Source of the DNA: Thiotrichaceae bacterium
Lineage (GTDB): Bacteria > Pseudomonadota > Gammaproteobacteria > Thiotrichales > Thiotrichaceae
Assembly: GCA_015490895.1 (NCBI GenBank)
Contig: WFWY01000022.1
Coordinates: 1-35,984 of the forward strand
Length of the DNA stretch: 35,984 nucleotides
Direction: 5' to 3'
The position numbers and the translations under genes were made by a program. Below the pieces are notes generated by a model. The model saw only the letters and a list, made by a program, of their open reading frames with translations, did no database searches and was not told the DNA's origin. Positions 6,167-19,636 of this stretch are shown here, one piece after another (position 1 is the first letter of the stretch; the number at the start of each line of letters is the position of its first letter).

Positions 6167-8755
6167 TTACTCTGTTTTGATTCCAGCACTGGTTTTTATT
6201 GCCTTCACTGTAGATTTTGGGGGAATGCGCCCTCCCAGATCCGGGGCATTGGCGTGCATCCAGCTAACGGCGCTGTCAAAATCATGTGCGATGACCTTGC
6301 CATTAAAGGTTTTATTCTCAGCAATAACAGGGACACCACTTTCGTTGGTTTCATGACAGGCTGCACATTTTAGCGGCCCACGACTGCCATCCGGATTGTA
6401 TTGTGGTGGCTGGTTATACGTGGTGGTATCAACACCTGGCGCAACAGGGTACAGGCCATGAATAGACTGATGACAAGCCTGGCACGCGAGACCTGCATGC
6501 CCCTTCGAATAACGCATCTGTGCATATTTCCCTGGCTGCGTAATGGGGAAGGCAACACCGCCCTGCCCTTCAACATAGGGTGGTGCATGACAATCTGCAC
6601 AATGAGGTACACCCGGAGATAGCCAGTAATCGCGTCCATGTGATGCCGCATCATACGGTGCAGCAACAGCACCATCTGCACCTTCTGGCAGGGTCAGTGA
6701 AGCAATATCAGCCTTGGGGTTGGTCGACAGAATCACAACATTAGCATCACCATCTTCATCCTTGTGAATCAGTGGCTTGCCATCTTTTGTGGCAATCACA
6801 GCAATATCGGCAATGACCCTGTCTCTATCCCAGACACGCAAGATATCTTTCATGTCCGCCAGTTTCGGGATAAAGGTGGAAGGTTTGGTTTTTGGATCCA
6901 TCCATTGCTCTGTCAGCTCTTTTACCGTCAGCTTCAGCGCCCTGGCAATCTCTTCCAGTGACTTGTCACGCAAGGTCTCACCTTCCTGCCAGAATGCCTG
7001 CGTAATATTGTCATGCTGATACAGTATACGACTAAGTTCATTATGACAGTTGGTACACCACAACCCCTTGGCTTCCCCGCCCGTTCCAATCTGGGAGATG
7101 TTGCTTTGCAGCCACTTACCGATTGCATTTAAGTGTTCTGGTGTTTCTGCACCATCCCGATCCTTGTTTGGGTTGGAATGCACATCACGGCCCACATAAC
7201 AGCCTCCTGCAGAGTCACGGTTATCAGTGAGCGCATATGTGTTTTTACCTTCTGGAGTAATGGGGTAGCCTTCCATATTATGATCCATACGGTGAGCAGG
7301 ATGACACCCCTGGCAGGTGCCGGTACGGCCTTTTGAATCCGACAGGGAGCGAACTTGCAGGTGCCCACGGTGCATGGCCTGACTCAAGGGTTCCAGTGGC
7401 GTATCACCTTGCATCTTTTTACCCGTGACGGCCTCTGCCGTACCCCTGGAAACCAGCGCACCAATGACATTGTCGGCATGGCATTTTTGACACAGGATGG
7501 GGTCGCGCCCCAGACGGTTGGAGGTGGATCGGCTGTTACTGTCATAATCTTTCAGGAAAGTGGTGCCAAACTTGCCATCGTGTAACTGCAATACCGATAC
7601 CGAAGTGGCTTTCAGGTTTGCAATCCAGTCACTGGCACCCAGGCTTTTCCAGAAGGCTTTTTCTGCCTTGTACAAGGTATGTTTTTTCCCATTGGCATTT
7701 TCATTGGAGTGGCAATTCGCACAGTTTGGAACATCAATCGGGTTGGTGCCGGTAAAACTGATAGGCTTGCCACTATGGCTGTCAAGCACAGGTTTACCCG
7801 TAGTAGCATCCATCAGGTCAACCTTCGCCATCTGGAAGGGGCTGATTTCAGACTCAACCAGTTCCAACGGGTTTTTGCCAACCTGACTATCCATAAACGG
7901 AGTCAACGGCAACCCCAATGCCTCCCAGATACCGGGGTGTGTGAGCATAATGGGCACATTGTCCAGTACTGGCGATTTGGTATACACAATCGTTCCGGTA
8001 TGAGAGGAGTAACGCATATGGCCATCATTTAGCGGGTCTCCCGTGGGGCCATGATCGACCGGTATCTTTAATTGAATACCCACATATTTTTTATCTGCAT
8101 CTTTACTGGTGCCTTTGGCATTGCCCCCTTCCAGATCATCATAGATATACAAGTGGGTAAAATAGGCATTACCGACATTTTCGCCATCTTCATACTTGCC
8201 ATTGTTATTCAAGTCATAAGGTACGCGCCAGTAATTGAGTTTGACACCTTCCGAATAAGAATTCCCGACATGGCTATAATGAAGCTTCATGCGCTTGTCA
8301 CCATCTACCAGTACTCGGGGATCCTTTTCATCCGCACCCAGCAGGACAGGCAGAGTGTTCTTGTCTGTCGCCGTTTTGATAACCTGGCTCTGAATAGAGT
8401 TGTAGGGAGGAAGAATACAACAATACGTAAAATCAAAGCCGGTACAATGCATGCCCAGTTCATAATTGATCGTGATATTGTAATCATTAATGGGTTTGCG
8501 TTCAGACTCCGTCAGCTTCCTGATGATATTCAACGGTTTTTTTACCGGCGAGGCAGCCGCTGTTGAGGCATCAGTCGCAGGGGCGGCATCCGCTATCGCT
8601 GTTTCCACTGCTTCTGCTTTATGCGTTTCAGCGGACTCTTCAGCGCTTAACGAAAAGCTGGCTGTTGCGGCAGCAATAGCTACCACTAACGCCACTCTAT
8701 ACCGGGCGCTACCTGAAGCATGAGAATAAAGTGGAAAATCCTGTTTTTGGGTCAT
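6167..8755 (-). CDS. Seven-haem secreted c-type cytochrome of unknown role
   Basis: Probably a periplasmic or surface electron carrier. The 862-aa product has an N-terminal signal peptide (hydrophobic core VALVVAIAAATASFSLSA, cleavage near residue 38) and seven CXXCH haem-attachment motifs at C345, C422, C481, C567, C719, C758 and C797. Before the haems lies a domain of about 250 residues opening with GMHCTGFDFTYCC (101-113), rich in Cys and His but without CXXCH, and an EF-hand-like DLNNNGKYEDGE (181-192). I chose ATG 8755 because GGAGG lies seven bases upstream; a TTG at 8818 adds no supported sequence. It is downstream of the oxidase, cytochrome c4 and copper-ATPase genes on the same strand. 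I do not recognise a characterised homologue. Confidence 0.9.
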   Translation of the reverse strand: MTQKQDFPLYSHASGSARYRVALVVAIAAATASFSLSAEESAETHKAEAVETAIADAAPATDASTAAASPVKKPLNIIRKLTESERKPINDYNITINYELGMHCTGFDFTYCCILPPYNSIQSQVIKTATDKNTLPVLLGADEKDPRVLVDGDKRMKLHYSHVGNSYSEGVKLNYWRVPYDLNNNGKYEDGENVGNAYFTHLYIYDDLEGGNAKGTSKDADKKYVGIQLKIPVDHGPTGDPLNDGHMRYSSHTGTIVYTKSPVLDNVPIMLTHPGIWEALGLPLTPFMDSQVGKNPLELVESEISPFQMAKVDLMDATTGKPVLDSHSGKPISFTGTNPIDVPNCANCHSNENANGKKHTLYKAEKAFWKSLGASDWIANLKATSVSVLQLHDGKFGTTFLKDYDSNSRSTSNRLGRDPILCQKCHADNVIGALVSRGTAEAVTGKKMQGDTPLEPLSQAMHRGHLQVRSLSDSKGRTGTCQGCHPAHRMDHNMEGYPITPEGKNTYALTDNRDSAGGCYVGRDVHSNPNKDRDGAETPEHLNAIGKWLQSNISQIGTGGEAKGLWCTNCHNELSRILYQHDNITQAFWQEGETLRDKSLEEIARALKLTVKELTEQWMDPKTKPSTFIPKLADMKDILRVWDRDRVIADIAVIATKDGKPLIHKDEDGDANVVILSTNPKADIASLTLPEGADGAVAAPYDAASHGRDYWLSPGVPHCADCHAPPYVEGQGGVAFPITQPGKYAQMRYSKGHAGLACQACHQSIHGLYPVAPGVDTTTYNQPPQYNPDGSRGPLKCAACHETNESGVPVIAENKTFNGKVIAHDFDSAVSWMHANAPDLGGRIPPKSTVKAIKTSAGIKTE

Positions 8756-8814: not shown

Positions 8815-8955
8815 TCAATCACGCAGAGCCACACAGCTTCGCCGAGTATCGCAACCTGACATCTCCCCGTCCTTAACATAGGTAAAGAAAGGGCTATTTA
8901 TTAATGCCAAAGTAATTGCCGGGCGACATACCGGAGGAGTTAAAAGGGTTTTCAT
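8815..8955 (-). CDS. Possible 46-aa peptide overlapping the copper-ATPase stop
   Basis: An ATG overlaps the stop of the upstream ATPase gene as ATGA, the arrangement usual for coupled genes, and opens a 46-codon frame starting MKTLLTPPVCRPAITLALIN with three Cys residues. In cbb3 operons a small ccoS gene often follows ccoI, but this peptide lacks the clear membrane helix of CcoS. It may be chance. Otherwise the 196 bases between the ATPase and the cytochrome gene show only the ribosome-binding site of the latter. Confidence 0.2.
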   Translation of the reverse strand: MKTLLTPPVCRPAITLALINSPFFTYVKDGEMSGCDTRRSCVALRD

Positions 8956-11453
8956 TGGACAGACTCCCTGACTCGGTGCAAACGCAGTGAGTTCAAAATT
9001 ACTACAAAAGAACTGAGTGACATTCCAATGGCCGCCATCCAGGGCGTAACAAAGCCCATCGCAGCAGCGGGAACTGCAAGTACATTGTAGAGAATGGCCC
9101 AGGAGAGGTTTTGCAAAATAATGCGCCGGGTTTTTCGCATAAAGTGAATGGCACCTGCCAGATCGCAGTAATCGTGCCGCAGAATCATCAGATCACTGTG
9201 ACTCTGGGCCAGGTCTGTTGCTTCGCTAAATGTCATGGAGACATTGGCCGCTGCCAGTGTTGGCGCGTCATTGATGCCATCACCCAGCATAAGTACCCGG
9301 TGTCCCTGTTGCTGATACTGTTGTAACCAGCTCAGTTTTTGCTGTGGCGACAGGCCTCCATAGGCTTCTGTTATACCGAGAACGGACGCTATCGCACTAA
9401 CGCTTTGTGGGTGGTCTCCACTGAGAATGACGCTGTTTTTAATGGATGTCAGTGATGCTATTGACTCCAGAAAGGGATGAATACCTTCGCGTAACGGGTC
9501 TGTCAGACACAGTATTGCCTGAACACCTGTCTCATTGCCCAGGTACAGGATGCTCATCCCCTGCTGTCGCAGTGTTTCTATCTGTATCCTGTTTTTTTCG
9601 TGTAAAGTGGATTGCCCAACAAAGGTTTCGTTCCCCAGTCTCCAGTGATGATGGTTGAAAACAGCTTCTATGCCCTGCCCCGGGTGGTTTTTCAGTTGTG
9701 CAACGTGTGTCTCTGGCAAGTCGCTGGCAGCTTCACGAATGGCTATGGCAAAAGGGTGCTCTGAGTGCTGCTCCATACTGCTTGCCAGAGAAAGATACTG
9801 TGCTTCAGTCTCGTTACGCCGGCCACCATGAGTACTATCAATTACGATCACCCTGGCCAGTTTGGGTTTGCCCTGGGTTAATGTGCCGGTCTTGTCAAAG
9901 ACCACCGTATCAATATGGCTTATTTCCTCAATCGCGGACATACGCAAGGCCGTTACATGAAAATGCGCCAGACCTCCCGCACACAGAGACAGGGCAACCG
10001 GAGCAGCAAGTGCCAGGGCACAGGGGCAGGTAACAATCAGCACAGACACCATATGAGCGATGGCATAGTGAGGATCAACCCATAGCCAATACAGAAACGT
10101 CAGCGTCGCAATCAGTAAAATGGCTGCAACGAATTTTCCGGCAACTTGTTCCGCAATATCGACATAATAGGGTTTATCGTTGACACTTTGTTGAGCCAGC
10201 TGCTGGATTTTCCCCAGTGTTGAATGACGACTGGGGCGCTGTACCTCGATCTCCACCGGCTGCTCAACTGTGATTGACCCGCCCATAATGTTGTCGCCCA
10301 AAACATGCTGAACGGGATGTGCTTCTCCACTGATCAGGGACTCGTCAAAACGGCTTTGTGCGCTACATAGCACACCATCCACAGGAACTGTTTCGCCCGG
10401 TGATAGCTGTATCCTGTCACCGGGCTGCAACTCGATCACCGCTATTTCTTCCAGGGTCTGAGTACCCTGAATAATTTTCCGGGCAGTTGCAGGGATAATT
10501 TTTGCGGTACGATCCAGCAAAGCCGTTGCTGACATGCGTGCCCGTAATTCCACATAACGAGCAACCAGAATAAACAGCACAAACATGGCGATGGATTCAT
10601 AATATACCTCGCCTGTACCCGTGATGGTAGCATGCAAGCTCCCTAGCCATGCCACCAGTAGCCCCAGTGCCACAGGGACATCCATCCCCAGCGTTCTGTT
10701 ACGAAGATCGCGCCAGGCATTGCGAAAAAACAGTTGTCCCGGATAAGCTAGAATCACACCTGTCGCCAATAAACTGCTCCAGCGAGATAGCGTTATCCAT
10801 AACGGATATTCGCCTACATCATTGGCTGCTCCAAAAAAATAGCTGCCAATCGCGGTTTGCATCACCATCATGCCGAGAATAATGGCAAAAAGTATACGCT
10901 TGATACTACGCTGCTCCTGTTCGCGATTCAGGGCTTCCCGGTATTGGGGGTCAAAAGGATGGGCGCGATAGCCAATGTGATGAATGGCTTCAAGAAGCGT
11001 ACTCAGGGAAGTTTTTCCAGAATCCCAGCGCACCTTGAGTTGCTGCCCGGTGTAATCGGCCTGCACCTCCAGTACACCTTCAAGCTGTCGTAGTGTCCGT
11101 TCATTAAGCCACATACAGGCGGCACATCGAATTTCTTCCAGAATCAGCCAGGCTTCCTTGCAGACTTTTCCCTCTTCTTCACAGGTACGAACAAAATCTC
11201 GCTGTATTTCTGGTTTGTCGTAGAGCTTTAGCTGTTTTACCAGATGTTGTGGGGAGGCTACTCCGGTAGTTGCTGTTTTTCCGGTGACTTCACGATAATG
11301 ATAGTAGTCTTCATTACCCGATGAGACGATAGCATGACACACAGCTTTACAACCCTGACAACAAAAAGATTGTACCTTGCCAAATACCTTGAGTGTCGAT
11401 GGGTGCTCTTCCAGAACAGGCAGATTACAATGAAAGCAGTGTTGATCTGACAT
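8952..11453 (-). CDS. FixI/CcoI-type copper-transporting P1B ATPase
   Basis: Exports copper to the periplasmic side, in this family to supply copper-containing oxidases. Starting at ATG 11453 (833 aa), the order is: an N-terminal Cys-rich domain (CFHC at 6-9, CCQGC at 31-35), a heavy-metal-binding fold with CAAC (110-113), membrane helices, the actuator loop with ESLISGE, the ion-site CPC (476-478), the phosphorylation motif DKTGT (Asp520), the HP dipeptide at 566-567 and GDGINDAP (724-731). The double N-terminal Cys domain is typical of FixI/CcoI. The frame is open to an ATG at 11531, but that extension contains a 10-base tandem duplication and looks non-coding. It follows cytochrome c4 closely, so it probably serves the adjacent ba3 oxidase. 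Confidence 0.93.
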   Translation of the reverse strand: MSDQHCFHCNLPVLEEHPSTLKVFGKVQSFCCQGCKAVCHAIVSSGNEDYYHYREVTGKTATTGVASPQHLVKQLKLYDKPEIQRDFVRTCEEEGKVCKEAWLILEEIRCAACMWLNERTLRQLEGVLEVQADYTGQQLKVRWDSGKTSLSTLLEAIHHIGYRAHPFDPQYREALNREQEQRSIKRILFAIILGMMVMQTAIGSYFFGAANDVGEYPLWITLSRWSSLLATGVILAYPGQLFFRNAWRDLRNRTLGMDVPVALGLLVAWLGSLHATITGTGEVYYESIAMFVLFILVARYVELRARMSATALLDRTAKIIPATARKIIQGTQTLEEIAVIELQPGDRIQLSPGETVPVDGVLCSAQSRFDESLISGEAHPVQHVLGDNIMGGSITVEQPVEIEVQRPSRHSTLGKIQQLAQQSVNDKPYYVDIAEQVAGKFVAAILLIATLTFLYWLWVDPHYAIAHMVSVLIVTCPCALALAAPVALSLCAGGLAHFHVTALRMSAIEEISHIDTVVFDKTGTLTQGKPKLARVIVIDSTHGGRRNETEAQYLSLASSMEQHSEHPFAIAIREAASDLPETHVAQLKNHPGQGIEAVFNHHHWRLGNETFVGQSTLHEKNRIQIETLRQQGMSILYLGNETGVQAILCLTDPLREGIHPFLESIASLTSIKNSVILSGDHPQSVSAIASVLGITEAYGGLSPQQKLSWLQQYQQQGHRVLMLGDGINDAPTLAAANVSMTFSEATDLAQSHSDLMILRHDYCDLAGAIHFMRKTRRIILQNLSWAILYNVLAVPAAAMGFVTPWMAAIGMSLSSFVVILNSLRLHRVRESVQ

Positions 11454-11501
11454 ATCTGATTTGTGAAAGCTAAATACCCTGCCTTTCAAATCCCCAATTC
11501 C

Positions 11502-11521
11502 GAAGCTATCTGAAGCTATCT
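11502..11521. repeat. Tandem duplication of a 10-base unit
   Basis: GAAGCTATCT occurs twice in succession, followed by an inverted echo (GAGATAGC). It lies between cytochrome c4 and the ATPase, in the part of the frame I treat as upstream of the ATPase start. Confidence 0.7.
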
Positions 11522-11551
11522 GAGATAGCATGTTGTGAGAGATACAAGAGC

Positions 11552-12241
11552 CTACTTAGTTCCAAGGGAAGCATAATAATCGGCCAGTTCATTGATCTCC
11601 TGGTCACTTAAGGCACTGGCAATAATTCGCATCCGGTTATAAATATCGTTGGCACGGGTACCTGATTTAAATGTCCGCATAATGGTCACAAAATAACTGG
11701 GATTTTGTCCTGCCAGTGCGGGCACATCTACAGTAGCGCCTTCGCCCTTATCACCATGACAGGTCGCACAAGGGGGGAGCAGGCGATCACCGTCTCCCTT
11801 TCTGGCCAGCCGGATAGCCGTTTCTGTCACTGTTTTGCCTGTTTTTGCCGTCGGCAGGCTTTGTTGAGAATAGTAGACGGCAAGGTTTGCCATGTCCTGT
11901 CTGGACAAGGTCGTCGCAAAATTCTGCATAATACCGTGACCACGCGTATTATCCTTGTAATCCATCAACTGTTTATATGTTGCCCCGGCAGGTTGTCCAG
12001 ATAACGAGGGGAAGTTCTCTGCAAGTGTCGCTGTACCATCTTTGCCATGACAGCTACTACATACCTCAGCCGTTTGCTTGCCCTTCTCACTGTCTGCAAA
12101 TTTGATCAGATCACGTGTTGCCTTATCCCATACAACCTGTGAAGAAGCTGCCGCAAAGGCACTGCTACTGATTCCCAGGCCCAGCACAACCGTCACCACC
12201 GTACAGGTGTTTTTCATCGTCTTCAGCATCGTATTTTTCAT
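11552..12241 (-). CDS. Dihaem cytochrome c4-type protein
   Basis: A periplasmic electron carrier with two class-I cytochrome c domains, a likely direct donor to the oxidase encoded just upstream. The 229-aa precursor has a signal peptide ending AFA (residue 30), CSSCH at 61-65 with distal Met near 105 (GIMQNFA), and CATCH at 158-162 with distal Met near 204 (NRMRIIA). The duplicated YKQLMDYK.../YFVTIMRTFK... halves are the c4 pattern. I chose ATG 12241 because GGAG is nine bases upstream; a longer in-frame start would overlap the oxidase gene. The ATG lies two bases after the oxidase stop, so the genes are probably coupled. Confidence 0.93.
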   Translation of the reverse strand: MKNTMLKTMKNTCTVVTVVLGLGISSSAFAAASSQVVWDKATRDLIKFADSEKGKQTAEVCSSCHGKDGTATLAENFPSLSGQPAGATYKQLMDYKDNTRGHGIMQNFATTLSRQDMANLAVYYSQQSLPTAKTGKTVTETAIRLARKGDGDRLLPPCATCHGDKGEGATVDVPALAGQNPSYFVTIMRTFKSGTRANDIYNRMRIIASALSDQEINELADYYASLGTK

Positions 12242-12243
12242 CG

Positions 12244-13881
12244 TTATATACTCCAGGGGAATGTGCCATGCGTTTCCATCAGGAAAAACTGCACGATGGG
12301 ATATCCATAACTGGCAACCATATAAACCGCGATAACCGCTGTCCAAAAACCAAACCCGTTTAACAAGCCCGGCAACTTTAATACGGGATGAAGGGGTTGT
12401 GCATATTCCATTACCGGCCTTTGCACCGCCTTATTCTGAAAATGACTGAAGAATAAATTAATGATCAATAACAGTGCCGAAATAAACAGGATCACGCCAC
12501 CGACCAGCATTGCTGTTTCATACGGAACCCAGGGTGCCGTAAATTCTTCACTATAAGGCGGAGCCCCAATGCGCCGTGGCTGGCCAATCAGTCCCAGAAT
12601 GTGCCAGGGCAAGGTCAGTACTAACATGCCGATAAACCAGAGCCATAGCTGAAGACGTGCCATTTTTATCGAATACAGCGGCCTGCCAGTCAAACTCGGC
12701 CACATATAATAAGCGATCGCAAAATACATGATGACAGTAGTACCCGCGAAAATCAGGTGGAAATGTCCGGTAATCCACTGGGTATTGTGTACTGCCACAT
12801 CCATCGAATAGGCCGCATTCACCAGGCCACCCCAGCCTCCTACGGTCAACATTAACAGCGATAAACCACCTGCCAGCACCATGGGATTATCCCAGTTTAA
12901 TGCCTTGATCCATCCAAACAGTCCCTTTCCACCACGCAAACGACCGGCAACCTCCATGGAAGCAATCACTGTAAAACCGGTAATCAGAGTAGGAATAGCA
13001 ACCATGAAGGTGCCAATCATATGAACAAATTTCCAGCCATCAGACTGCATGGGATCAACATATAAATGATGCATGCCAATCGGGACACTGAAAACCAGCA
13101 ACATAAGTATGGCAATACGCGAAAACTCATCGCTAAACAGTGCCCCACCTGCTGCTTTGGGTACCAGTGTATAAAAAGCGATGTAGGCCGGTATTAACCA
13201 GAAATAAACGATTGCGTGGAGCGTCCATGAAAACAGTGTTCGAGCCAGACCCACATCAATGGTATCAATCCAGCCCAGTGACCAGGGGATTAACTGAAAC
13301 AGCACCTCGGATGCAACCCCCAGACTGGTAATGAACCAGAGGATGGAGTTTGCTGTCATGGCATACATGGCCAGCGGTACAGGTGAACCGGGGTTCTGTT
13401 TTTTCCAGCTGCTCATGGTCATGATCATCTGTAAACACCACACCCAGGAACCGACAACCAGCAAGCTTGCGCCGATATAAAAAACAGGGTGTGCCATAAG
13501 CGGTGGGTAAAATGTATACATAACAGAGGCTTTACCGATAAACAGCATGATTGCTGCCATCGCCGTTCCACCCAGACTGATCAGAAAACCCAGCCAGCCC
13601 AGCTTGTCGCCCCCCCAAAGCGGGATATGTAAGGTGCTACGAGCAATCCAGTAACCAAACCCCATAATAAAGAAGGTTGTCAATACAAACCCCATGATCA
13701 CGCCGTGGCTGGATACGGAACGAAAGTACAACTCAATCACTTCAATTTGTGGAAAAAAACCACTACGTTCCGCTACCTGATAAACACCCATCAGAGAGGC
13801 AAGCAAAAAGGTGATAAAGGCTATCCAGATATTTGCCAGAGACAAGCGGCCTGCTTTTGAATCCATTACCTGTGTTGTCAT
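12244..13881 (-). CDS. ba3-type (B-family) haem-copper oxidase subunit I
   Basis: The catalytic subunit of a cytochrome c oxidase that reduces oxygen to water and pumps protons in the inner membrane. The 545-aa protein has 12 or more hydrophobic helices and all metal ligands: His59 and His375 for the low-spin haem, His373 for the high-spin haem, and His222, His271 and His272 for CuB, with the cross-linked Tyr226 in LHAIVYFWL. The His-x3-Tyr spacing and the LHAIVYFWLIPAY segment match the ba3/B family rather than cbb3 oxidases. It overlaps the subunit II stop by ATGA and is followed two bases later by cytochrome c4. Confidence 0.95.
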   Translation of the reverse strand: MTTQVMDSKAGRLSLANIWIAFITFLLASLMGVYQVAERSGFFPQIEVIELYFRSVSSHGVIMGFVLTTFFIMGFGYWIARSTLHIPLWGGDKLGWLGFLISLGGTAMAAIMLFIGKASVMYTFYPPLMAHPVFYIGASLLVVGSWVWCLQMIMTMSSWKKQNPGSPVPLAMYAMTANSILWFITSLGVASEVLFQLIPWSLGWIDTIDVGLARTLFSWTLHAIVYFWLIPAYIAFYTLVPKAAGGALFSDEFSRIAILMLLVFSVPIGMHHLYVDPMQSDGWKFVHMIGTFMVAIPTLITGFTVIASMEVAGRLRGGKGLFGWIKALNWDNPMVLAGGLSLLMLTVGGWGGLVNAAYSMDVAVHNTQWITGHFHLIFAGTTVIMYFAIAYYMWPSLTGRPLYSIKMARLQLWLWFIGMLVLTLPWHILGLIGQPRRIGAPPYSEEFTAPWVPYETAMLVGGVILFISALLLIINLFFSHFQNKAVQRPVMEYAQPLHPVLKLPGLLNGFGFWTAVIAVYMVASYGYPIVQFFLMETHGTFPWSI

Positions 13882-14384
13882 AGTGTGTCTCCCAGCTTGA
13901 TTTCATCTTTCGGGACAACCCATAAACGTGACCACATATAGTCATGTCCCAAACCGCAATATTCATTACAAAACATCGGAAATTTGCCCGTTTTTGGAAA
14001 TGTCGTTGTAATTTCAGAAACATAGCCGGGCACGACCATCGTATTCATATTGGTGCCCGCCGTATGCACACCATGCAACACATCCGCACTGGCAATACGA
14101 AACGTGATAGGAGTACCCACCGGCACTTTCATATCCTGCGGATAAAAGCCGTAGCGGGCAGCGACCATCGTAACCACCAGAGAGCCATCCTCTGTCTGTC
14201 TGAGGCCGAGCTTGTCCTCGGCAAATTCTGCGGACAAGTGCAGTGAGACAGAGTCTATCGTTTCAACATTACTGGGAGGAACTATATTGTGGTTAATCGC
14301 ATAGGCCGTGAGTATGCCCACCATAGCAAAAGCCATGGCCACACTGAGGATCACCCATTTTTTTTCAGTACCATCTACGTGCAT
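13878..14384 (-). CDS. ba3-type oxidase subunit II with CuA site
   Basis: Accepts electrons from cytochrome c at the binuclear CuA centre and passes them to subunit I. The 168-aa protein has one N-terminal membrane anchor (about 10-30) and a cupredoxin domain holding His104, Cys139, Glu141, Cys143, His147 and Met150 in CNEYCGLGHDYM, a complete CuA set. The short length and single anchor fit ba3 rather than aa3 subunit II. AAAGGAG lies just before the ATG and overlaps the end of the small subunit gene; its own stop overlaps the subunit I start. Confidence 0.95.
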   Translation of the reverse strand: MHVDGTEKKWVILSVAMAFAMVGILTAYAINHNIVPPSNVETIDSVSLHLSAEFAEDKLGLRQTEDGSLVVTMVAARYGFYPQDMKVPVGTPITFRIASADVLHGVHTAGTNMNTMVVPGYVSEITTTFPKTGKFPMFCNEYCGLGHDYMWSRLWVVPKDEIKLGDTL

Positions 14385-15040: not shown

Positions 15041-15104
15041 TAGTAACGCATTAAAAAACTGCCCTGGGTTGTTGGACTGTTTTCATAAAAAGAGCGAAAT
15101 ACCT

Positions 15105-15836
15105 ATGAGCCTGCTACCCAAACTTCCTGCCGAACAGCAATTGTCCTGTGAAAACTGCTCGTCACAACGGCATGCCTGGTTTGAAAAATGCAATCAACAG
15201 CAGCTAAAAAGCTTTCAACTTTATCGAAATGCACAATGTTTTATAGAGGCTGGAAATTATCTTTTTATGGAGGGTGAAACTCCCAGGGCGGCCTATACTT
15301 TGCAAGATGGTTGGGCAATCTGCTTCAAATCCCTTGCTAACGGACGCCGACAAATCCTGTCGGTTGCTTTCTCCGGAGACTATCTTGGCTATAGAACCGA
15401 CATGAGTGTACCGGTTGATTACTCTGTCATGGCCATGAGTACTTGCCGTATATGTACCTTCTCTGAAAAAAACATTCGGCAGTTACTATTAAAATCTCCG
15501 CTTCTCATCGAAAACCTGATCCATATTCAGGAAAAACAGGCCGCCGCGTGCAGAACCCGCCTGACTTATATCGGACAAGCCTCAGCAAAGCAGAAAATTG
15601 CTTTCTTTCTAATCAATATATTGGAAAAACTGGAAAGAAGAGGTATGGATATCAGCCAGGATATTGATTTCCCTCTCACCCATGAAGATGTGGCTGATGC
15701 CATAGGGATAACCTCGGTTCATATGTGCCGGGTAGCTGTAGAACTACGCAAGGCAGGTATTGTTGATTGTCGCCACAACCATATCCAGGTGCTAGATTTT
15801 GAAAAATTGAGTCGTTTGGCCAGAGTAGTCTTTTAG
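15105..15836 (+). CDS. Crp/Fnr-family transcriptional regulator
   Basis: A 243-aa regulator with an N-terminal cyclic-nucleotide-binding-type beta-barrel (about 36-130), a long dimerisation helix (about 131-175) and a C-terminal winged helix whose recognition helix reads GITSVHMCRVAVELRKAG (201-218). Cysteines at 15, 18 and 29 plus 114 and 117 could hold an FNR-like iron-sulfur cluster, but their spacing (C-x2-C-x10-C) differs from FNR, so oxygen sensing is a suggestion only. Recognition-helix Cys208 replaces the usual Ser or Asn. I start at ATG 15105 because MSLLPKLP fits family N-termini and AAGAG lies upstream; an in-frame TTG at 15069 is less likely. It is divergent from the oxidase operon and probably regulates it. 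Confidence 0.85.
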   Translation: MSLLPKLPAEQQLSCENCSSQRHAWFEKCNQQQLKSFQLYRNAQCFIEAGNYLFMEGETPRAAYTLQDGWAICFKSLANGRRQILSVAFSGDYLGYRTDMSVPVDYSVMAMSTCRICTFSEKNIRQLLLKSPLLIENLIHIQEKQAAACRTRLTYIGQASAKQKIAFFLINILEKLERRGMDISQDIDFPLTHEDVADAIGITSVHMCRVAVELRKAGIVDCRHNHIQVLDFEKLSRLARVVF

Positions 15837-16122: not shown

Positions 16123-17490
16123 ATGCCTAAACAACGCAATCTTTTCTCGACTGCCCTGCTCTGCTGTAGTGTATTACCTGGCGCATTACTTTTCCCCCCT
16201 GCATTGCCCGCCAAAACAGCGCCTGCTGAATCCGCTGAAACAACCACAGATCGCTCACAGGTTCTGGTAACGATTGACGATACGACGGTTACCCGGGGAG
16301 AATTACAAACGGCACTTTCCAGTTCTCCCTTCTATACACAGTTCAATACTCTGGACGAAAACACACAAGCCTCTATACGGGGAGATTTTCTCAAACGCAT
16401 GGTATCGTCCAAACTGCTGGCAGCCGAGGCGAAACGTCTGGGGCTGGAAAGTTCCGATGCCTTCAGGCAGGAACTGGATGAATATACAAAGGGACTCCTT
16501 TATCGCCAATATACTCAATCACTCAGACAAAATATCACCCTGAGCAAACAGGAAACAGATGAGCTTCGAAAAACCTATAAAGACCGCCCTGATGCCTTTA
16601 CTGCCGCTAAAGCCAGTGCCATTGCACGCAAATATAAAGCACTGCTCAGACTAACGCTGCTCAAATTGCGTGACAATATGCAGGTTAAAATTCATGCGGA
16701 TCGTATTACTGATAATGTCACCGCCAAAACTGTACTGATGGAAGGTAATAATGGCCTGAAATTAACTTACGGTGACATTGTTGATACCCGGCGTTACCCC
16801 GAAACACCCGACCCTGAGGCAGTGCGTGAAAAACTCTATCAGTACATTGAATATATGTTAATCAGTACAGCAGCCAGAGATGAAAAGCTGGATATCAGCA
16901 AGCCACTTTCCCGCTACAGGCAACAGCGTCTGCCCGCTATGCTGGTCGAGCAAAAAGCTAAAGAATGGATAAGCGACGAAAAAATACTCCGGGACTACTT
17001 TGAAAAACATCCTGAACTGGGACATACCAAAGGTCAGTGGCATATTGGGCAACTGGTTGTTAAAACAGAAGCCGATGCCAAAAAGGCAGAGAAACTCATC
17101 CGGGAAGGCAAAAAGAGCCTGTTCGAATTAGCCGCAACAATGACTATCGACCCCTATGGTAAGGCACACAAGGGAGACATGGGCTGGATAACACAAGGCA
17201 CAGGCATGCCGGAGATTGAACAGGCGCTCAAAAAGCTGAAAAGTCAGGAGCTCAGTCCGGTTATCAAAACTCCTAAAGGTTTCCACCTGGTAACCATTAT
17301 CGACCAGAAACCCGGACAAAAACTGGGGTTTGGCGCCGTTAAAGATAAAATACGGCAACGGATTATTTCTCAAAACATGGCGCACTACCTGCAAACCTTA
17401 CAGGCCAGACACCGTATTACCTGGCACGTGCTGGAATCTGACCCGAGTAAAGCCGAGTCACTTGCCAAACGCAAGAAAAGCCTACAATAG
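16123..17490 (+). CDS. Secreted PpiC-type peptidyl-prolyl isomerase / foldase (SurA-PrsA-like)
   Basis: A predicted periplasmic chaperone for exported proteins. The 455-aa precursor has a signal peptide (FSTALLCCSVLPGALLFPPALPA; cleavage near residue 30), a helical chaperone region (about 45-290, with a SurA-N-like VTIDDTTVTRGEL start) and one parvulin domain (about 305-395) containing HIGQLVVKTEADAKKA, GDMGWITQG and KTPKGFHLVTIID. The C-terminal tail is Lys-rich. One parvulin domain and the length place it nearer PrsA/PpiD-like foldases than E. coli SurA, which has two. It precedes rpoH in the same direction, but the CIRCE-controlled promoter lies between them. Confidence 0.85.
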   Translation: MPKQRNLFSTALLCCSVLPGALLFPPALPAKTAPAESAETTTDRSQVLVTIDDTTVTRGELQTALSSSPFYTQFNTLDENTQASIRGDFLKRMVSSKLLAAEAKRLGLESSDAFRQELDEYTKGLLYRQYTQSLRQNITLSKQETDELRKTYKDRPDAFTAAKASAIARKYKALLRLTLLKLRDNMQVKIHADRITDNVTAKTVLMEGNNGLKLTYGDIVDTRRYPETPDPEAVREKLYQYIEYMLISTAARDEKLDISKPLSRYRQQRLPAMLVEQKAKEWISDEKILRDYFEKHPELGHTKGQWHIGQLVVKTEADAKKAEKLIREGKKSLFELAATMTIDPYGKAHKGDMGWITQGTGMPEIEQALKKLKSQELSPVIKTPKGFHLVTIIDQKPGQKLGFGAVKDKIRQRIISQNMAHYLQTLQARHRITWHVLESDPSKAESLAKRKKSLQ

Positions 17491-18910: not shown

Positions 18911-19636
18911 ATGAAAATACAAGCAACTGCATTCGCAGCTTTTATTGCATTAGCTAGTACAGCTTCAGCAGACTGGATGGATGGTTTTAATCAGGGAAAT
19001 ACCCAGGGCTCAGGAGCTGGTAATGCAGCTGGCTGGGGCACAGGTCAGGGAACGGGTTCCGGCAACACTCAGGGAAATGTAAAAGGCTGGGGTACCGGCA
19101 AGGGTGATGCGGACGGCACTGTAGATTTTGAAATCAAATTCAAAGGCAAGGGTCGTACTAATATGGACGCCAAAGGCTCAGCCGATGGCGAGGGCAAAGG
19201 ATCTGGCAATACCGCCTCAAACTGGACGGGAAGTGGTAATACCACAGGCAATACCGCTATGAGCGGCACGGGTGCCAATAATAACTCCGGCTATGGTAGT
19301 TCAATGCCCTGGAACAATAACACTGGCTATGGAGGTTCATCCATGCCCTGGAGCAACAACAATAACGGCTGGAGCATGCCCTGGAGCAACAATAATAACG
19401 GCTGGAGTATGCCCTGGAGTAATAACAATAATGGCTGGAGTATGCCCTGGCGCAACAACAACAGCGGCTGGAGCATGCCCTGGAGCAACAACTCCACCCC
19501 TTATGGTTATGCCCCCTATGGATACGGTTATGCACCGGCCTATGGTTATGCCCCTTATGGCTACATGCCTGCAATGCCAGCTGCACCTCGTCCCGCTGCG
19601 CCGGCTACGCAACCGGCTACACCTGCGAGCAAGTAA
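18911..19636 (+). CDS. Repetitive Gly/Asn/Trp-rich secreted protein, sulfur-globule-protein-like
   Basis: A 241-aa exported structural protein. After a signal peptide (1-20, ending ASTASA) comes a Gly/Thr/Asn/Gln-rich segment (21-130) interrupted by a charged stretch (VDFEIKFKGKGRTNMDAKG, 71-89). Five tandem 11-residue repeats of the form SMPWSNNNNGW follow (about 144-198, nucleotides 19340-19504), then a Tyr/Gly/Pro tail with YGYAPYGYGYAP and PAAPATQPATPASK. It has no cysteine and no catalytic motif. Low-complexity proteins rich in Gly, Asn, Trp, Tyr and Pro form the envelope of periplasmic sulfur globules in purple sulfur bacteria and relatives; composition and signal peptide suggest a similar role, by inference only. 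GGAGA precedes the ATG and a strong terminator follows, so it is probably monocistronic and highly expressed. Confidence 0.8.
   Translation: MKIQATAFAAFIALASTASADWMDGFNQGNTQGSGAGNAAGWGTGQGTGSGNTQGNVKGWGTGKGDADGTVDFEIKFKGKGRTNMDAKGSADGEGKGSGNTASNWTGSGNTTGNTAMSGTGANNNSGYGSSMPWNNNTGYGGSSMPWSNNNNGWSMPWSNNNNGWSMPWSNNNNGWSMPWRNNNSGWSMPWSNNSTPYGYAPYGYGYAPAYGYAPYGYMPAMPAAPRPAAPATQPATPASK
19340..19504 (+). repeat. Tandem 33-bp coding repeats
   Basis: Five consecutive 33-base units encode SMPW-S/R-NNN-N/S-GW; the last unit diverges (NNSTPY). Units one to three are nearly identical, differing mainly at third codon positions, so they are under protein-level selection or duplicated some time ago. Partial units lie just upstream. 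Confidence 0.85.

Follow-up and report, generated by a model that had tools for sequence, protein, structure and literature searches.

We describe a family of multihaem cytochromes c that appears, judging from its sequences, to be new: it has two branches, is undescribed in the libraries that we searched, and belongs to a known kind of protein, with no sign so far of new chemistry. The heptahaem branch is represented by a gene on a 35,984-nucleotide stretch of DNA from a Thiotrichaceae bacterium (GCA_015490895.1, contig WFWY01000022.1, positions 1 to 35,984), hereafter the window. We see an even chance that its product is a secreted, periplasmic c-type cytochrome that acts as a bis-histidine electron-transfer hub and feeds alternative terminal reductases in sulfur oxidisers. 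The seven haem motifs, their conservation, the sister family, the gene neighbours, the co-occurrence and the clade structure are observed; from these we infer which residues bind the haems and which Cys pair, where the protein resides, which way electrons flow and what the protein does. In sulfur-oxidising, nitrate-respiring gammaproteobacteria, which tie the sulfur cycle to the nitrogen cycle, the electron route to alternative periplasmic acceptors is poorly mapped. A compact and sharply delimited family with seven or nine haems, associated with the dsr and nap genes, with HAO-like genes and with oxidase genes, is a concrete candidate for this electron link. No model of it exists in Pfam-A or NCBIfam as searched here, and its GMHC signature allows its annotation.

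The heptahaem gene and its protein

The heptahaem gene lies where the original prediction had placed it, although the prediction left out the strand (Table 1). The minus strand is coding; the plus strand of this interval is riddled with stops. The start codon is an ATG at 8755, with a Shine-Dalgarno-like GGAGGAAAG just 5' of it. The protein begins with a signal peptide of the non-lipoprotein type, followed by an Ala/Glu-rich linker, and is haem-free up to residue 344. Thus, the claim of seven CXXCH motifs, none of them in the first 340 residues, agrees with the translation, in which no CXXCK or CX15CH haem motifs were seen. The EF-hand-like loop DLNNNGKYEDGE was also found as predicted. The Cys/His motif GMHCTGFDFTYCC is present as well; however, it is located behind the signal peptide and the linker and not at the very start of the protein, as had been proposed.

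Table 1. Features of the heptahaem gene, its protein and the neighbouring genes in the window
Feature	Position	Strand	Basis or remark
Heptahaem cytochrome gene	6167..8755	-	862 aa; translation and 27 further homologues (alignments A1/A2)
Haem-free N-terminal domain, residues 89-342	7730..8491	-	beta-sandwich predicted (AF2); no family match
GMHCTGFDFTYCC motif, residues 101-113 (H103, C104, C112, C113)	8417..8455	-	invariant in heptahaem homologues
Ca-binding-loop-like motif DLNNNGKYEDGE, residues 181-192	8180..8215	-	DxNGDGKxxxxE-like in heptahaem members
Haem 1 CXXCH (C345ANCH), residues 345-349	7709..7723	-	
Haem 2 CXXCH (C422QKCH), residues 422-426	7478..7492	-	
Haem 3 CXXCH (C481QGCH), residues 481-485	7301..7315	-	
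Invariant non-haem C519...H526 (CYVGRDVH)	7178..7201	-	Cys aligns with CLRGAM of nonahaem sisters
Haem 4 CXXCH (C567TNCH), residues 567-571	7043..7057	-	
Haem 5 CXXCH (C719ADCH), residues 719-723	6587..6601	-	
Haem 6 CXXCH (C758QACH), residues 758-762	6470..6484	-	
Haem 7 CXXCH (C797AACH), residues 797-801	6353..6367	-	
Copper P-type ATPase (CopA/FixI-like)	8952..11531	-	TIGR01511, PF12156, PF00403
Dihaem c4-like cytochrome	11552..12244	-	Pfam/NCBIfam profile matches
ba3-type oxidase subunit I (cox1)	12244..13881	-	best PDB match T. thermophilus ba3, 4n4y, 1.3e-108
Oxidase subunit II (cox2), CuA motif	13878..14384	-	PF00116, TIGR02866; CNEYCGLGHDYM in sequence
Fnr/Crp-family regulator, divergent	15069..15836	+	Pfam/NCBIfam profile matches
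PpiC/SurA-like parvulin	16123..17490	+	PF00639/PF13145; in other lineages it typically adjoins the heptahaem gene

Conservation among heptahaem homologues

Genome searches yielded 27 further homologues in Thiotrichaceae, Sedimenticola, Methylothermaceae and other gammaproteobacterial families. Heptahaem homologues have identities of 62-88%, except for the distant L061 (43% in alignment A2, and 36% to the window protein by BLAST), and all of them have seven haems apart from L061, which has nine. As these homologues keep the haem count and an invariant GMHC motif, the open reading frame is not a product of chance. The GMHC...CC residues, whose conservation the original prediction had made its touchstone, are indeed invariant: GMHCTGFxFxYCCxLPPYNSxxxQV is found wherever the N-terminus is included, and M102, H103, C104, C112 and C113 occur in all 27 N-terminus-bearing rows of an alignment of 28 rows. 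The Ca-loop-like motif follows the pattern D-x-[N/D]-x-[D/N]-G throughout the heptahaem members, except for L061, where it is degenerate, and the truncated L060, where the start of the loop is gapped. Overall, 10 free His and four free Cys are invariant in the heptahaem branch, compared to its seven haems.

The divergent homologue L061 (L061:7972-11502, G383:C16) is a 1177-aa protein with nine CXXCH, encoded beside ppiC and a tlpA-like gene. It stands between the heptahaem and nonahaem branches.

A nonahaem sister family and the nature of the GMHC site

The window genome encodes a second GMHC protein (G000:C136), which has nine haems and shares the N-domain signature with the heptahaem protein. 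This nonahaem family occurs in 30 of the 369 sampled class genomes, and its profile had almost no matches in a phylum-wide sample. Its members always read DLGMHCxDxD...LPP[FY][NQ] and contain the Cys of C[LQF]RGA[MV], with CLRGV in one member. GMHC, LPPxN and haems 1-4, 6 and 7 of one branch can be aligned with those of the other, whereas the fifth haem has an equivalent location in both but does not align. We propose a GMHC superfamily, defined by an N-domain that bears LGMHC and LPPxN and by a subsequent multihaem domain in which the free Cys of a CxxG motif is invariant; both branches have these features. Besides the number of haems, the nonahaem proteins differ from the heptahaem ones in having CLRGAM in place of C(Y/F)xGRDVH and in lacking both the CC pair and the Ca-loop; several have lipoprotein-like N-termini, and no PpiC or TlpA neighbours were seen.

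The free residues of the sister family indicate what the GMHC site may be. In 26 divergent nonahaem sequences, each with nine CXXCH, exactly nine free His are invariant, and these include the GMHC His. This suggests one distal His per haem, the GMHC His among them. The same sequences have exactly two invariant free Cys, the GMHC Cys and the CLRGAM Cys, which therefore point to one Cys pair. At the same conservation threshold, only three Met, one Lys, three Tyr and five Arg are found. The heptahaem branch retains both Cys (104 and 519) and six of the nonahaem free His (103, 392, 462, 465, 753 and 766), which align with six heptahaem haems. Thus, H103 is most likely the distal ligand of one haem, a prediction drawn from conservation. 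In addition, we infer that C104 pairs with C519, the only invariant free partner of the GMHC Cys; in the window protein, C519 follows C104 at a distance of 415 residues. The original prediction of a copper or unusual haem site was therefore partly right in its haem half. Beyond the nonahaem set, the heptahaem branch has H488, H526, H718, H834, C112 and C113. H834 was also considered as common to the nonahaem branch, and this was dropped; its nonahaem counterpart is the His of a CXXCH.

The nonahaem protein of the window genome (L066:2037-4922) starts in the manner of a lipoprotein (LLTACGGGG) and contains a long linker of Asp-rich repeats. Among the ORFs around it, inspected by eye, are two whose products also start like lipoproteins and one that resembles an outer-membrane-assembly gene.

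Gene neighbours in other lineages and co-occurrence across genomes

Outside the clade in which an oxidase cluster adjoins the heptahaem gene, a PpiC parvulin is its direct neighbour in nearly all loci, and a TlpA-like thioredoxin is found in about half. Further neighbours differ between lineages. For instance, locus L024 reads octahaem-TPR-napA-G-H-B-heptahaem-ppiC, all in one direction, and the octahaem-TPR pair is also nearby in L054 and L063, so that octahaem and heptahaem genes are physically linked in three lineages. A NapC-like tetrahaem gene lies directly upstream of the heptahaem gene in L023, and L048 contains a flavocytochrome c sulfide dehydrogenase near it. The best solved relative of the octahaem protein is 4qo5, with HAO-like enzymes next. 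By description only, it also looks related to the nitrite-reducing octahaem 'orange protein' of Guaymas Beggiatoaceae, whose gene has napA and napB upstream (PMC6449678).

To estimate co-occurrence, we used 369 class genomes, of which 15 carry the heptahaem gene and 354 do not; these are raw counts that ignore kinship. The gene dsrA is present in 12 carriers compared to 105 of the others (p 1e-4), the octahaem gene in 8 compared to 19 (p 1e-6) and the nonahaem sister in 10 compared to 20 (p 6e-9). For napA, which was counted in carriers only, the number is 12/15. The carriers are scattered sulfur-oxidising, mostly nitrate-respiring bacteria. The window genome has neither napA nor an octahaem gene, and a fixed partner is therefore not established.

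In L005 (4153-5304) and L062 (11026-12240), the gene directly upstream of the heptahaem gene encodes a fusion of a NapC-like tetrahaem protein with a dihaem c4-like domain, with six CXXCH. In L048, L051, L053 and L057, a gene pair for a secreted ankyrin-repeat protein and a NapC-like tetrahaem protein is repeatedly found in the vicinity of the heptahaem gene. Furthermore, the ba3-type cox1 of L024 (15692-18055; 788 aa) seems to be a fusion with a dihaem cytochrome domain and has two CXXCH.

Proposed role of the heptahaem protein

The neighbours of the heptahaem gene are terminal or electron-delivery modules (napAGHB, octahaem, NapC-like tetrahaem, and the ba3 oxidase with c4). As the partner reductase varies by lineage while the cytochrome and the foldase are constant, a hub fits better than a subunit of a single enzyme. 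In such a hub, most haems would be bis-His, as the free His suggest. H103 of the N-domain would provide the distal ligand of one haem, and the pairing of C104 with C519 would clamp the N-domain onto the haem chain. Electrons would then pass from the quinol or cytochrome c pool through the heptahaem protein to a terminal reductase encoded nearby. In some lineages this acceptor could be the Nap nitrate reductase or the octahaem HAO/ONR-like nitrite/hydroxylamine enzyme, and in the lineage of the window the ba3 oxidase. The neighbouring PpiC foldase and TlpA thioredoxin probably aid the folding of the heptahaem protein and the handling of its Cys.

The 10 free His and four free Cys exceed the needs of a simple bis-His wire, and a further site could thus exist. 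It is possible, with a lower probability than we give to the hub, that the protein is itself an enzyme, a multihaem reductase or dehydrogenase whose substrate is a small molecule of nitrogen (nitrite or hydroxylamine) or sulfur (sulfite, tetrathionate or polysulfide), with an open haem or Cys-based site lined by H488, H526, H718, H834 and the Cys of the heptahaem branch. The invariant His and Cys beyond the set common to the sister family point in this direction, as do the dissimilatory neighbours (napA, the HAO-like octahaem gene and the sulfide dehydrogenase of L048) and the strong association with dsrA and octahaem genes; however, the invariant free His suffice to cap every haem, the CXXCK and CX15CH motifs are missing from the translation, and the protein matches no characterised multihaem enzyme. 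We are doubtful of a new respiratory enzyme in which H488, H526, H718, H834, C112 and C113 together with C104 and C519 would form a haem-coupled catalytic or metal site for a nitrogen or sulfur oxyanion, with PpiC and TlpA as a dedicated maturation pair.

Comparison with known families and folds

No entry in Pfam, NCBIfam or the PDB covers the protein. NCBIfam yielded nothing above the cut-off, and PDB searches with the single sequence and with profiles from alignments A1 and A5 found no credible relative. The claim that the protein does not fit the NrfA, OTR, MtrA, HAO and DmsE-type families is borne out, as it matches neither a characterised multihaem family nor a solved structure; in particular, no full-length match to a characterised multihaem enzyme was found. 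The NrfA models (PF02335, TIGR03152) had no match at E<=1, and the protein has seven CXXCH in contrast to the five haems and the catalytic CXXCK of NrfA. The DmsE/MtrA decahaem model (TIGR03508) also had no match at E<=1. The octahaem HAO/ONR model PF13447 had none at E<=1 in the heptahaem protein, whereas the same library matches the octahaem neighbour in L063. Literature searches on the GMHC motif and on heptahaem cytochromes of sulfur oxidisers found nothing relevant.

An AF2 model based on 28 close homologues had a pLDDT of 52.7 and was discarded as unusable. Adding 26 nonahaem sisters resulted in a moderate model from 48 sequences (pLDDT 67.7, pTM 0.71), in which residues 89-342 form a beta-sandwich. 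Foldseek found no match in the PDB at E<=0.001, and VIA-align of the N-domain resulted only in low-Z, tied Ig-like matches. Such weak, tied matches to a predicted model show neither kinship nor a new fold.

The predicted order of a beta domain followed by a haem domain is shared with MtrC, MtrF and OmcA, and the protein might thus be an outer-membrane or extracellular conduit at the cell surface, which we consider unlikely. Apart from generic cytochrome models, the only Pfam match is PF22113 (MtrC/F domains II/IV), at 30.4 bits just above the cut-off of 30; it is found in 39 of the 48 family members but appears unspecific, as NapC-like and octahaem (HAO-like) proteins match too. In VIA-align, MtrC reaches a weak Z of 4.0 across 140 residues, tied with unrelated Ig-like folds. 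The spacing C104-x8-C113 resembles the CX8C disulfide reported for MtrC (PMC4486940, PMC9973256), but C113 is missing from all nonahaem sisters. Several of these sisters have lipoprotein-like N-termini, which would suit such a conduit, whereas the window protein has a non-lipoprotein signal. Furthermore, the ten haems in two pentahaem domains of MtrC, MtrF and OmcA contrast with seven CXXCH and no tandem beta/haem duplication here, there is neither a significant full-length match nor a set of MtrAB partners, and an MtrB/PioB porin was found in 1/15 carrier genomes, marginally, and not in the window genome.

Very unlikely is the copper half of the original prediction, taken here to mean that GMHC...CC binds copper or another metal within a domain like those of cupredoxins or P19, and that the adjacent copper ATPase and TlpA serve this site. 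In its favour, the ATPase does adjoin in the oxidase clade, TlpA is found in many other loci, and the best of the weak matches of the N-domain include two kinds of copper protein, FetP/P19 (Z 4.6, 105-108 residues, rmsd 3.6-4.0) and CrdA (Z 4.0). However, these low scores are equalled by many copper-free Ig-like domains, P19/FetP has no sequence match to the heptahaem protein, the ATPase is part of the oxidase cluster and absent beside most homologues, and the site is disfavoured because C112 and C113 are absent from the sisters and C104 has a single, distant Cys partner.

The oxidase clade and the window

The oxidase, cytochrome c4 and copper ATPase genes that had been reported upstream of the heptahaem gene are all present, on the same strand (Table 1). 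The order cox2-cox1-c4-CuATPase-heptahaem is repeated in three further loci (L019, L020 and L025), and CuATPase-heptahaem is also found at a contig start (L052). These five copies, the window's included, group in a single, fully supported clade that is separate from the copies of the window's own genus (G003 and G005), and two genomes contain both types (bin.186 with L020 and L022, G157 with L052 and L054). Only 5/19 tested carrier genomes contain the ba3-type oxidase of the window. Thus, the adjacency that was taken as a clue to the role is real but lineage-specific.

In the window, as in L019, the parvulin and the Fnr-like gene lie across the oxidase cluster from the heptahaem gene, whereas fnr, heptahaem and ppiC are adjacent in G003 (L063). 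This arrangement suggests that an oxidase-heptahaem cassette arrived and replaced an older heptahaem copy. The G+C content of the cassette bears no mark of foreign origin, and no plasmid relatives were found. A scan for FNR boxes was no better than chance, and a promoter and terminator scan was uninformative. Elsewhere in the window, the plus strand encodes a VapC-like PIN-domain ORF near the edge (545-940, recognised by eye) and a Gly/Asn-rich secreted protein with tandem SMPWSNNNNGW repeats (18911-19636).
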